A DNA stretch of 48,577 nt from an archaeon (lineage in GTDB: Archaea > Thermoproteota > Thermoprotei_A > Marsarchaeales > Marsarchaeaceae): positions 1 through 48,577 of the forward strand of contig CADDZQ010000005.1 in assembly GCA_902812505.1 (NCBI GenBank), in the 5' to 3' direction. This document shows positions 12,090 through 39,430 of this stretch, in pieces. The notes beneath the pieces were generated by a model. The model saw only the letters and a program-made list of their open reading frames with translations. It searched no databases and was not told the DNA's origin. Numbering within the stretch: the stretch's first letter is position 1; each line of letters starts with the position of its first letter. Both the position numbers and the translations under genes were made by a program.

Positions 12090-12440
12090 GAACGCCGTAG
12101 TCAGCAGTTACAAAATAGATATGTTCATATAGATTTCTGGACTTGAACAATCCAGTTGTGCATGAGCAGTAGGGTGGTAGCAGAGACCCAAGACCTCGGC
12201 TGAGGGAGGGGTACATGTATACACAGGGAGGAGGGGAGGCTGAAGATGAAGGGCGTTCCCCATGAGGCCTTCTTCGGCGACGTGGAAGGCGTGTAAGTGA
12301 GTGGGTGGGTGCGTCCTGACACGAGGAGGCCAAGCGGAGTGACCCCGATGAACCCGTGAGGTCCCTACATGATGCTGTGAAGCCCAAGCCCTACGGGGTA
12401 TGCGGACGCATACCCACGTATGCCCATCTAGGGTGAAACC
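12090..12440 (+). mobile_element. Deletion derivative (MITE-like) of the TnpB element at 38069-39430
   Basis: The left end (from GAACGCCGTAGTCAGCAGTT) matches the left end of the larger element at 38069 over about 50 bases. An 87-base block at 12303-12389 matches 39281-39367 with two differences, and both copies end in GTGAAACCC followed by t. The tnpB coding body is missing, about 1 kb shorter, although a stretch near 12235-12265 still resembles the tnpB 3' end. A hairpin sits near the right end (stem 12396-12402/12409-12415). The right end stops exactly at the trpA stop codon (12441-12443). Confidence 0.8.
12303..12440 (+). ncRNA. Putative omega-RNA (reRNA) scaffold at the right end of the deletion derivative
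   Basis: TnpB nucleases use a guide RNA made from the right end of their element, with the guide taken from the flanking DNA. This region is the homologue of 39281-39430: 87 bases nearly identical, then a diverged segment that keeps a hairpin, then GTGAAACCC. If transcribed rightward, the next 16-20 bases (the guide) would be antisense to the trpA 3' end. Expression and function are inference. Confidence 0.45.
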
Positions 12441-13244
12441 CTACTTTCCCTCTTCAGTGGGCACAGTTGTGCTTGTTGCCTGTTTAAGTGCGTGAACCGT
12501 GCTCTCCAAATTCGCTAACACCTCAACCCAGCTGGGCTCCTGGTCCATTAGCTTAGAGATAAGGAGGCTGCCAACTATTACACCGTCAACACCCGCCTTT
12601 AAGGCCTGACTCACTGTGCGTGGATTGGATACTCCGAAGCCCAACGCGAGAGGCCTGTTCACCACACTCTTAGCCCTTCTTATGAACTCATATGTATATC
12701 CCGGTAACTCATCCCTGACACCCGTCACCCCGTAGACTGATACCAAGTAGACGAACCCTGTTGAGTTTTGTGCTATCTTCTTCAGTCTCGGGGTAGAAGT
12801 AGCGGGGGTCGCTAGGAAAACGGTGCCCAACCTATTCGCCCAAGCCGTGCGCACCCATTCGGCCGCGAGCTCAACGGGTAAATCGGGTATTATTACACCA
12901 CTAACACCACTACGTGATGCTTGGGCTGCGAACTCAGCGTACCCCATCCTAAGTATTGGGTTAAGATAACTCATTATGTAGATGGGTTTCCCACTACCAC
13001 TCAGTCTCCCAGCCATATCCAACACGAGTCGAAGAGACACGTTTTGTCTCAGCGCTACTGTTGACGCCTTCTGGATTAGGGGTCCATCCGCTATGGGATC
13101 CGAGAAGGGCACCCCCAATTCGAGGGCGTCGGCGCCCGCTTTGAACACTATTTCAGCGGCCTCAAGGCTTCTGTCAAGCGTTGGGTAACCCGCCATGAGG
13201 TAGGCTATCAGCGGGTGATTTGAACCAAAGATCCTAGCACTCAT
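12441..13244 (-). CDS. trpA: Tryptophan synthase alpha subunit
   Basis: 267 residues. Cleaves indole-3-glycerol phosphate to indole, passed to TrpB. The catalytic pair is visible: Glu42 in [16 protein letters not shown] and Asp53 in the same motif. [14 protein letters not shown] and LGFGVSNP / GVIVGSLL match the active-site and phosphate-binding loops. Last gene of the trp operon; overlaps the trpB stop by four bases. The 3' end abuts the right end of the MITE-like element. Confidence 0.95.
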
Positions 13245-16861: not shown

Positions 16862-17436
16862 CTCTTCACCACCCCTACAAAGGATTCAAGTATATTTTGG
16901 CCGAACCTCGTGAGAACGGATTCTGGGTGAAACTGCACCCCGAATATGGGGTGACTCACGTGTTCTACACCCATTATCTCACCATCATCAGCGCTTACAG
17001 CATTGACTCTAAGGGGTACTCCTGATCCCACTTCACCCACTAAGGAGTGGTATCGCCCAACATAGAATCTACGTGGTAGACCCCTAAAAAGTGCGCCTCC
17101 CAAGTTAACTATCAGGCTCTTTTCTCCGTGTCTAACTACTCTTGCCTTCCTGATCTTACCACCGAAAACGTGTATGATTTCTTGATGACCCAAGCAAACC
17201 CCGAGAACAGGCTTCTCGCTGCCAAGCCGCCCAATAATGTATGGGCCAATACCAGTCCACCTACCATCCCTAGGGTCGCCTGGGCCGGGGGATATCACGA
17301 AGCCATCGTATACTCCAAGCGCCTCAATGGGTAGTTCATCATTCCTACACACTTCAACATCCACTCCAAGTGAACCCAATGCCTGATAGAGATTGTAGAC
17401 AAAGGAGTCGTAGTTGTCCACCAACAGCAGCCTCAA
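16858..17436 (-). CDS. trpG: Anthranilate synthase component II (glutamine amidotransferase)
   Basis: 192 residues, class I glutamine amidotransferase domain alone (not fused to TrpD). The nucleophile Cys81 is in GVCLGHQE, and the His-Glu of the triad in VQFHPESVL. ISPGPGDPRD is the oxyanion strand segment. It supplies ammonia to TrpE. TTG start in a TTGA overlap with the trpE stop, so coupling to trpE is expected. Confidence 0.95.
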   Translation of the reverse strand: MRLLLVDNYDSFVYNLYQALGSLGVDVEVCRNDELPIEALGVYDGFVISPGPGDPRDGRWTGIGPYIIGRLGSEKPVLGVCLGHQEIIHVFGGKIRKARVVRHGEKSLIVNLGGALFRGLPRRFYVGRYHSLVGEVGSGVPLRVNAVSADDGEIMGVEHVSHPIFGVQFHPESVLTRFGQNILESFVGVVKR

Positions 17437-19157
17437 AGCCTAGCCACCTCCCCACCACCGGCACCAAGAGCCTCAACGACAACCCTAGCCTTACTTTCGG
17501 TCTCATAGTACTCGGAGACAGGGTCTGATGCTGCAACTATTCCAGCCCCAGCCTGGACAACACACTGTGAGCCATGAGAGTAAAGGGACCTAATGTTTAT
17601 CGCCATATCCATGGTGTGTGCACCCATAAAGTAACCAACACTACCAGCGTAGGGTCCACGTGGCTCGCCTTCGAGTGAATCTATGAGCTCAACGGCCCTC
17701 ACTTTCGGGGCGCCGGAAACTGTCCCCGCGGGGAAAACCGCCGTGAAAACATCCACAGAATCAAACTCCTCTTGTAATTCACCAACAACCTTTGACACTA
17801 GGTGCTGAACATGACTATACTTCATTACCTTACGGTACGAGGTTACCCGAACACTGCCGAAACGTGAAACCTTACCCAAATCGTTCCTAGCCAAATCCAC
17901 TAGCATAACGTGCTCCGCCGCATCCTTAGCGCTCCTAAGTAACTCCCTCCTCAGAGATTGATCCAACTCGGGGTTACCTGTGACCTTCCTCGTACCGGCG
18001 ATTGGATAGGTCTCAACTCTGCGCCCGCTCACACGCACCAGTGTTTCAGGGGAGGAGCCAATTATTCGCCTCTCACCCATCTTAATATAATACATGTAAG
18101 GCGAGGGGTTCGTTTCTAGGAGCCTAATGAACACGCTCTTATATTCCCCCTCAAACGCTACACCTAGCTTCCGCGCCAAGACAACTTGGAACACCTCACC
18201 AGTAGCGATGTACTCCTTGGCCCGGTTGACCATATCCACATAGCCACCAATATCAGGTCGCTCATAAACAACCTTTCCCGCTCCACTGCCACGCGGTTTA
18301 TGGGAGCCAAGCTCGCCAATATTTCTCCAATCTGGGGGTCGACCCACAGCCCAGGCTTTATCCTCGTTGAGTACTCCCTCCTCAGAGATTGATCCAACTC
18401 GGGGTTACCTGTGACCTTCCTCGTACCGGCGATTGGATAGGTCTCAACTCTGCGCCCGCTCACACGCACCAGTGTTTCAGGGGAGGAGCCAATTATTCGC
18501 CTCTCACCCATCTTAATATAATACATGTAAGGCGAGGGGTTCGTTTCTAGGAGCCTAATGAACACGCTCTTATATTCCCCCTCAAACGCTACACCTAGCT
18601 TCCGCGCCAAGACAACTTGGAACACCTCACCAGTAGCGATGTACTCCTTGGCCCGGTTGACCATATCCACATAGCCACCAATATCAGGTCGCTCATAAAC
18701 AACCTTTCCCGCTCCACTGCCACGCGGTTTATGGGAGCCAAGCTCGCCAATATTTCTCCAATCTGGGGGTCGACCCACAGCCCAGGCTTTATCCTCGTTG
18801 AGTACTATGAAATCATCGAAGCCAAGATATTCTAGGTCGTGGAAAGGCTCGGGAGACCTGTATGGAACCTTCTCCCAGAGTGACATAGCGCTGAATGAGG
18901 TGTAACCCAATACCAAACCATGGGTCCGCAGAATACTTCGAAACTCTGATGCCACGCTTTCCCAGTCACGTCTACCCCCACTAACACTGTACATCGTTGC
19001 AGGGTTAACACCGCACACAACACGCCTACGCGAGCCGTTGGATACAATAATCAGACCGCCACTATACGCCGATTCAACCAAATCAACAAGGGAAGAGATC
19101 TTTGGATATGTCGACAGACGTTCCCTTATTAATCCAAACGCGACCGCCCTGCATCAT
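17433..19157 (-). pseudogene. trpE: Anthranilate synthase component I, disrupted by a 431-bp tandem duplication
   Basis: First gene of the trp operon. Removing one repeat unit gives a continuous protein of about 405 residues from TTG 19081, ending in the normal chorismate-binding domain (GERRIIGSSPETLVRV, YPIAGTRKVTG, LVDLARNDLGKVS, GAPKVRAVELID, YAGSVGYFMG). As read, the upstream part runs from 19081 to 18164 and the downstream part reads in another frame to 17433, because 431 is not a multiple of three. Protein-like sequence also extends upstream of TTG 19081 (for example RERLSTYPKISSLVDL), reaching ATGATG at 19157 if one G in the GGG at 19148-19150 is dropped. The rest of the operon is intact. 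Either a recent mutation or an assembly error. Confidence 0.85.
17942..18803. repeat. 431-bp perfect tandem duplication within trpE
   Basis: Bases 17942-18372 and 18373-18803 are the same 431-bp unit; I see no difference between them. The junction shares a 3-base ACT with both outer edges, which is microhomology typical of replication slippage or template switching. It breaks the trpE frame. Confidence 0.95.
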
Positions 19158-38010: not shown

Positions 38011-38136
38011 CTACTGCACCACCAGAAATACATGTCAAACCCCCTATTATTTGTTACCAATACGCCACGAATGCCGTAGTCAGCAGTTTCAAAATAAATA
38101 GGCTTATATGGATTTATACTATATGGGGTTACAGGC

Positions 38137-39337
38137 GTGCCGAGAAGCTATTCACTTGAACATGAGCGCGGAGAACAACTCGAACCACTGCTACGAGCGT
38201 ACAGGGACGCTGTAAACCAAATACTTGGAGAGCTCTGGGGCGCCCTAGAGTGGGAAAAGAGGAGGGCGAAGGGGGGCAAAACCAGTGGAGGCTCAAACCC
38301 AAGTACAAGGTGGACATCCACAGCAAGGAGTACAAGAAGGAGCTCAGGGACCGCTTACTCTAGGGTTGGCCTTATGCTGCGCACTGGGTGGACTCCGCCA
38401 TAAAAACAGCCTACTCCACACCCAAGTCGTGGCGTAAAAACTACCTGAAGGGTGACTGTTAAGCCGGGTGAGTACGTGTACCTCGACCTCTCGAAGAGGT
38501 ACTTCCCTCTACTTGGGGAGGTGTCCTCGGCGGGTCTAGGTGAACCCATAATCACACCCGAAAAGATACACCTACCAGTGCATTGCGGGGATGGCGATCA
38601 AGGCGGCAAACCCAGTGTGGCGTGGGACTTCAACCTGCTTTCCCTGGACGGCTACTCACCCGAGACGGGGTGGGTGAGGATAGACACTTCAAAGCTTGCT
38701 TCTATTCACATCTCATCCTTCGAGAAGAGGCGTAGTGTGCAGAGGAGGGCTTCAAAGTCGAAGAAGGCTAGGAGGGTGCTCGCGAAGTACTCGAAAAGAG
38801 AAAGAAACCGTGCGGGGAAGCACCACCTCGAGATTGCGCGTGTCATTCAGTCGGTGGCGGGAGTCGTGGGCCACGAAGAACTCTCCAAGAAGGGAATGTA
38901 TACGCGTTCACGTGTGTGGAACCGCAGAATATCGAGGAGTGACTGGCGCTCAATCGCGAAGATACTCGAAGAAAGGCTGGGTGAAGCCAGAGTAGAGGAG
39001 CTCGACCCATATGGCTCATCCTCCTACTACTCCAGGTGTGGGTGGGAGAACAACACAGACCTGAATGGGGCGGAGGTGTCGGTGTGTGGTGGGTAGGGGC
39101 TCCGTATTAATAGGCAGCATTAATAGGCAGCTCAACGCCGCAATAAACCTCCACATGAGGCTCAGGTTCGGGTACACCGAGAAGTGGGAGGGTGGAAGGA
39201 AGCGTGTACAACTGAGGATGGAGGGCGCTCCCCCAGCGGCGGGTGTGGTGGGACCGCGTGGTGCTACCCTCCCTCCTTATGGGTGGGTGCGTCCTGACAC
39301 GAGGAGGCCAAGCGGAGTGACCCCGATGAACCCGTGA
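38137..39337 (+). pseudogene. tnpB: TnpB nuclease gene with multiple lesions
   Basis: The parts read as one TnpB: N-terminus from 38137 (EHERGEQLEPLLRAYRDAVN), a frame change near 38270, KYKVDIHSKEYKKELRDRLL, an in-frame TAG near 38360, WPYAAHWVDSAIKTAYSTPK, a TAA near 38460 with a further frame change, then VKPGEYVYLDLSKRYF and VAWDFNLLSLDGY (RuvC first Asp), VEELDPYGSS (second acidic site), a broken zinc finger (SRCGWENN) and, in another frame, INRQLNAAINLHMR where the usual Asp is Asn. A repeat of TTAATAGGCAG occurs just there (39107-39129). It cannot make an active protein as read. Confidence 0.85.
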
Positions 39338-39430
39338 GGTCCCTACACGATGCTGTGAGGCCCAAGCTCTGCTACGCGTACGACAGGTACAATGATGTGT
39401 ACCTACGTATACCTACGTAGAGTGAAACCC
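39281..39430 (+). ncRNA. Putative omega-RNA (reRNA) overlapping the tnpB 3' end
   Basis: Bases 39281-39367 are nearly identical to 12303-12389 in the tnpB-less copy, so this block is conserved independently of the protein frame it partly overlaps. TnpB guide RNAs come from exactly this position. A 3' hairpin precedes the end. Guide would be the bases after 39430. Confidence 0.5.

Follow-up and report, generated by a model that had tools for sequence, protein, structure and literature searches.

Elements of the IS607 family encode a serine transposase (TnpA) together with TnpB, lack terminal inverted repeats, and insert by exchange at GG/CC without target duplication (PMC6188088, PMC4058570). 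Full copies of the Marsarchaeota family described here resemble IS607, IS1535 and archaeal ISC1926 in carrying a serine TnpA and TnpB, in having no terminal inverted repeats, and in their CC/GG exchange free of target duplication. In contrast, the element analyzed in the window carries neither gene and possesses a private 5′ RNA domain, and the preferred site is GCC. The reRNA of IS607 TnpB, derived from RAGATH-18, is encoded at the 3′ end of tnpB and takes its guide from the right flank (PMC11061315). The same arrangement, a scaffold at the tnpB 3′ end followed by a right-flank guide, is predicted here. It differs in having no match in Rfam, in that the archaeal scaffold overlaps the coding end of tnpB, and in its upstream motif, which would be GCC rather than AGGAG/GAGGG.

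A PATE-like IS605 copy in Halanaerobium, consisting of the left end, the final segment of tnpB and the complete right end (PMC7290912), likewise keeps the guide-RNA region, but it is a single copy of IS605 type, and no added conserved RNA domain was reported for it. It was the only tnpB-less guide-RNA copy found in a limited search of the literature. In archaeal IS200/IS605 elements, the guide RNA (omegaRNA/sotRNA) overlaps the tnpB 3′ end (PMC12558985). An archaeal TnpB-associated guide RNA with this overlap is also predicted here; however, those RNAs lie within IS200/IS605 tnpB genes, whereas in the present case the RNA portion occurs by itself, in a miniature element (MITE) of the IS607 type.

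The window, that is, the whole stretch of 48,577 nucleotides analyzed, is contig C5 of the MAG of a hot-spring archaeon (1.43 Mb, 114 contigs, 79% complete). The closest genome, from the same genus, is Candidatus Marsarchaeota G2 archaeon ECH_B_1 (G001; its contig C41 is NEXG01000041), and G002 represents a second genus within the family. The coordinates of all features are collected in Table 1.

Table 1. Features of the trpA-adjacent element and of its TnpB-bearing relative in the window.
Feature	Position	Strand	Basis
Complete IS607-type MITE	12094..12441	+	ends common to 25 other complete copies; GCC at joins of sister empty sites
TATA-like box TTCATAT in left end	12124..12130	+	constant spacing to 5′ RNA domain in 26 copies
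MITE-specific 5′ RNA domain	12152..12223	+	model R1, 85.3 bits; conserved in 26 copies
Guide-RNA-like (omegaRNA/reRNA) scaffold	12240..12441	+	homologous to tnpB 3′ end and right end; compensatory changes in 26 copies; aligned with full IS607 copies
Helix 4 of scaffold	12250..12317	+	12250-12263 pairs with 12305-12317; three pairs double-changed; 98.1% of cells paired
91-bp block, gene-conversion patch	12302..12392	+	common with 39280-39370; 3/91 differences to TnpB copy
Helix 6, terminal hairpin GGGTATGC-GGAC-GCATACCC	12396..12415	+	three pairs double-changed; 97.8% of cells paired
Flank positioned as guide	12442..12461	+	directly after right end; antisense to trpA end
trpA, intact	12441..13244	-	TIGR00262, 244.7 bits; ORF list
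TnpB-only relative, same family, tnpB pseudogene	38073..39430	+	common ends, broken frames; site empty in G001

The element begins with GCC at 12094-12096, which is derived from the target and includes the CC exchange dinucleotide, and its right end (...GTGAAACCC, GAAACCC) terminates at 12441. The first-pass annotation had described a tnpB-less, MITE-like derivative whose right end touches the trpA stop and whose first guide bases would be antisense to the trpA end, and all of this was confirmed: the stop codon TAG is read from the strand opposite 12441-12443, its third base coinciding with the final base of the MITE, and the tnpB frame is wholly gone. In BLASTN, the two window copies were identical at 88 of 91 bases of the shared block (E 3e-40), 40 of 47 bases at the left end (12090-12136 against 38069-38115) and 26 of 32 bases at the right end. 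The first-pass annotation had given 87 bases and two mismatches for the block.

Searches with the right half yielded 5 matches in the window genome, 20 in G001 and 17 in G002, and none in 38 other relatives; with the left half, G001 gave about 30 copies, partial or full, and G002 about 10. Since the ends together with the RNA half recur at least 20 times in G001 and 11-17 times in G002, a chance resemblance is excluded. Complete copies with both ends numbered 26 (318-397 bp). They are short, free of a coding frame, present in many copies, and bear the ends of an autonomous element, as MITEs do. The closest pair was 96% identical and the median was 83%; most copies are therefore not recent. Conservation over the 26 copies reached 0.93-0.95 in the left end, 0.98 in GCAGTAGGG, 1.0 in AGACCCAAGA and 0.95-0.97 in the right end. 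All of these segments are at least as conserved as the 87-base block, contrary to the claim that conservation peaks there.

Empty sites were sought by comparing the joined flanks of 22 copies with three genomes, and both occupied and empty alleles were obtained. The site of the window TnpB copy is empty in G001 (CGAAT-GCC-TCCC), and that of MITE L089 is empty in the window genome (TTAAA-GCC-GCAG). The L099 site has GCC at the join, read from one side; together with the two clean empty sites it places insertion at GG/CC, while the L090 site was too diverged for reading. Insertion is thus an exchange over a common CC (GG in the complementary strand) that leaves the target unduplicated, with a weak sequence preference upstream of GCC. 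The guide match is preceded by GCC in the empty site and by CCC in the occupied one, so that self-discrimination by TnpB would rest on the G or on bases farther out.

A full copy in contig C22 of G001 (L176/L209) shares both ends with the MITEs and encodes a TnpA of 201 aa and a TnpB whose frame is shifted once. Its 201-aa protein scored 212.7 bits against the IS607 transposase model NF033518 (cut-off 110). Three intact tnpA copies are present in G001, as are intact TnpB-only copies (L206 and L216) with ends like those of the MITEs. An intact TnpB of the same type, for which the first-pass annotation had proposed a search, was accordingly found in the sister species but not at home: the copies in the window genome are all broken (the window tnpB is split, and a copy on C35 has a broken tnpA and tnpB), and no intact tnpA or tnpB of the family occurs in the 79% of that genome recovered.

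Because the autonomous relatives carry a serine transposase and TnpB and insert at CC/GG, the family is of IS607 rather than IS200/IS605 type. By these sequence features, the trpA element is a non-autonomous MITE of an archaeal IS607-type family of Marsarchaeota. The common ends and the insertion differences between species point to mobilization of the MITE in trans by TnpA, which is plausible because the sister species has undamaged TnpB and transposase genes flanked by these ends. A full IS607 element with both genes open (L215; WSBC01000008, 1932-3841) was also found in a MAG that bears the label Euryarchaeota MV2. The L215 TnpA closely resembles that of Marsarchaeota, and its TnpB is only about 53-56% identical, a mix that suggests misbinning, a mosaic origin, or transfer from one archaeal phylum to another.

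Each MITE is laid out like a candidate RNA gene. The TATA-like box reads TTTATAT in 24 of 26 copies and TTCATAT in two, the trpA copy among them, and it lies 26-33 nt from a conserved TGTGCA in every copy. The distance from an archaeal TATA box to the start site is about the same. A scan for bacterial-type promoters and terminators, outside of which archaeal promoters fall, returned nothing. The following 5′ RNA domain (68-92 nt) comprises a closing stem (TGTGCA.../...GTACA), two inner hairpins and long invariant stretches; as the domain is mostly invariant, its structure is only weakly tested. It is restricted to MITEs and missing from TnpB and TnpA copies, which have only the left end in common with the MITE left half. 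Among 229 genomes of the class, its covariance model matched G000, G001 and G002 alone. Two exact 17-mer matches in viral contigs were rejected, as model R1 had no match there.

In the alignment of the scaffold from 26 copies, 97.6% of cells were paired and ten pairs were changed on both sides, as is expected of a conserved structured RNA. Double changes occupied 56 cells compared to 17.6 in shuffles, and slid versions of the structure collapsed. Most double changes sit in helices 4, 5 and 6; helix 5 is partly broken in the trpA copy and may shift register. The distant L215 forms the same terminal hairpin with different bases. In TnpB copies, the scaffold doubles as code for the C-terminal tail of the protein; since the frame is gone from most MITEs, the conservation of the scaffold is not explained by protein coding. 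Compensatory changes could also spread through recombination with TnpB copies, in which case no selection in the MITEs would be needed.

The RNA of the trpA MITE folded alone was no better than its shuffles (z -0.68); single-RNA folding is not distinctive here, and comparative evidence was used instead. Rfam returned no relevant family at gathering or relaxed thresholds, RAGATH-18 included, and a hit to mir-3059 (E 0.48) was dismissed as chance.

The family TnpB aligns with solved TnpB/Cas12f-like proteins. Its RuvC-III motif, (D/N)RQLNA(A/S), carries Q where DxNAA has its D; this applies to all copies extending that far (L206, L216, L203-L212 and the distant L215), so that the canonical D-E-D triad is incomplete. 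As Q substitutes the third catalytic D, guide-directed cutting may not work. TnpB lineages with altered catalytic sites have been reported, and the family TnpB may therefore be active or inactive. An AlphaFold2 model of L216 (mean pLDDT 50) was too poor for use.

Taken together, an old IS607 MITE that is fixed at the end of trpA is the ordinary part of this locus; less ordinary is its family, which is tnpB-less and high in copy number, retains a promoter-like element together with a guide scaffold, and has a private RNA domain. We consider it likely that the MITE is moved in trans, that its RNA is transcribed and usable by TnpB made elsewhere, and that the trpA copy is an old passenger. The IS607 TnpA of full copies would have moved the MITE, and each MITE would be transcribed from the TATA-like box of its left end. 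The resulting RNA would consist of the 5′ domain, the scaffold, and then about 20 nt of flank as guide. Trans use of such an RNA is plausible: TnpB produced elsewhere could load it, and the loaded protein would aid retention of the element at its site, as proposed for TnpB. At trpA, the MITE landed precisely at the stop codon and left it unharmed, and part of the scaffold was overwritten through gene conversion. A bolder extension appears improbable to us, namely that some 30 dispersed guide-RNA genes, each with its own promoter and private 5′ domain, are served in trans by a TnpB without the third RuvC aspartate, forming a mobile guide library whose protein partner may be a binder and not a nuclease, acting where a site is unoccupied or the element has been excised.

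It is somewhat less improbable, though still unlikely, that the MITEs are pure DNA parasites whose 3′ part is kept only because the transposase needs the ends, with the RNA structure a relic acquired through TnpB recombination and no RNA made or used. Such a reading fits the trpA copy, which diverges like spacer, and the gene conversion between element types described below. It does not readily account for a conserved scaffold of about 200 bp and a conserved MITE-only domain, beyond what IS607 end binding is expected to need, nor for a promoter-like box at a fixed distance and compensatory changes in three helices.

The history of the trpA copy could be followed in G001, where contigs C32 (pyk) and C4 (trpA) both end within the element and overlap by 91 identical bases. 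This overlap indicates the same insertion at the same base in both species; the trpA copy is, on this comparison, vertically inherited, with the sister species bearing the element at the same base of the trpA stop. Divergence between the window and G001 was 3.0% for trpA, 5.4% for the pyk 3′ end and 8.1% for the spacer. The element without the block diverged by 12.1%, which did not differ from the spacer (p 0.21). In contrast, the block differed from its G001 ortholog at 23 of 91 positions (25.3%), gaps not counted (p 0.004 in comparison with the remainder of the element), and from the TnpB copy by 3.3% (p 3e-5 against the ortholog). Because this sharply bounded patch is far closer to the non-allelic TnpB copy than to the ortholog, its near-identity, previously taken as a sign of conservation, is attributed to gene conversion involving that copy, which lies 27 kb from the MITE, and not to purifying conservation. 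The site of the TnpB copy is empty in G001, and this copy therefore probably arrived in the window lineage after the split or was lost from G001.

The same comparison bears on the proposal that the MITE RNA, or antisense reading at trpA, controls the trp operon. The shared insertion at the trpA stop in two species and a guide antisense to the trpA end speak for such a role, yet the constraint expected of a trp regulatory RNA was not observed: outside the block, divergence of the element is no slower than that of the neighbouring spacer, which gives no sign of exaptation, and the block has been replaced. The first 16 bases of the guide found no second match in the window genome at up to two mismatches. 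About 30 further MITE copies occupy unrelated sites, one of them within an open frame, and the insertion, having left the stop intact, can be neutral. We regard exaptation as very improbable; of the two interpretations offered by the first-pass annotation, the non-autonomous derivative with a retained guide-RNA-like scaffold stands, and the trp regulator does not. The trpA copy is probably an old, fixed and immobile passenger.

Least probable of all is an origin as a PATE-type derivative of IS200/IS605 (Y1 transposase), for although that group is the best-known source of TnpB with its guide RNA and PATE-like ends-only copies have been reported there (PMC7290912), it is already contradicted by the lack of any match to Y1 HUH TnpA (PF01797) in the window genome (79% complete), by the IS607 serine recombinase between the same ends, and by insertion at GCC.

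If the trans-served IS607 MITE reading is true, guide-RNA-only transposons would demonstrate that a TnpB system can amplify its RNA half apart from the protein, and such separate spread would be a route to CRISPR-like guide sets served in trans. For testing, nature supplies in this family about 30 related RNAs within a single genome, each with its own guide, along with an extra conserved domain and an atypical TnpB. The trp locus is a caution, in that a copy with an exapted look is instead an old passenger, part of which gene conversion has overwritten.

Three minor observations were made. MITE L171 (G001 contig C2, near 106472) splits a would-be open frame of at least 401 codons over the joined flanks. 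In the window, trpE is interrupted by a perfect tandem duplication (17942-18806; 434 bp, period 431), which leaves two overlapping frames, 17433-18347 and 18164-19081, that both match TrpE-arch; the duplication is a recent mutation if real, and otherwise an error of assembly. Where two minus-strand frames adjoin, the junction is spanned by a tandem direct repeat of 72 bp (2704-2845) containing one mismatch.
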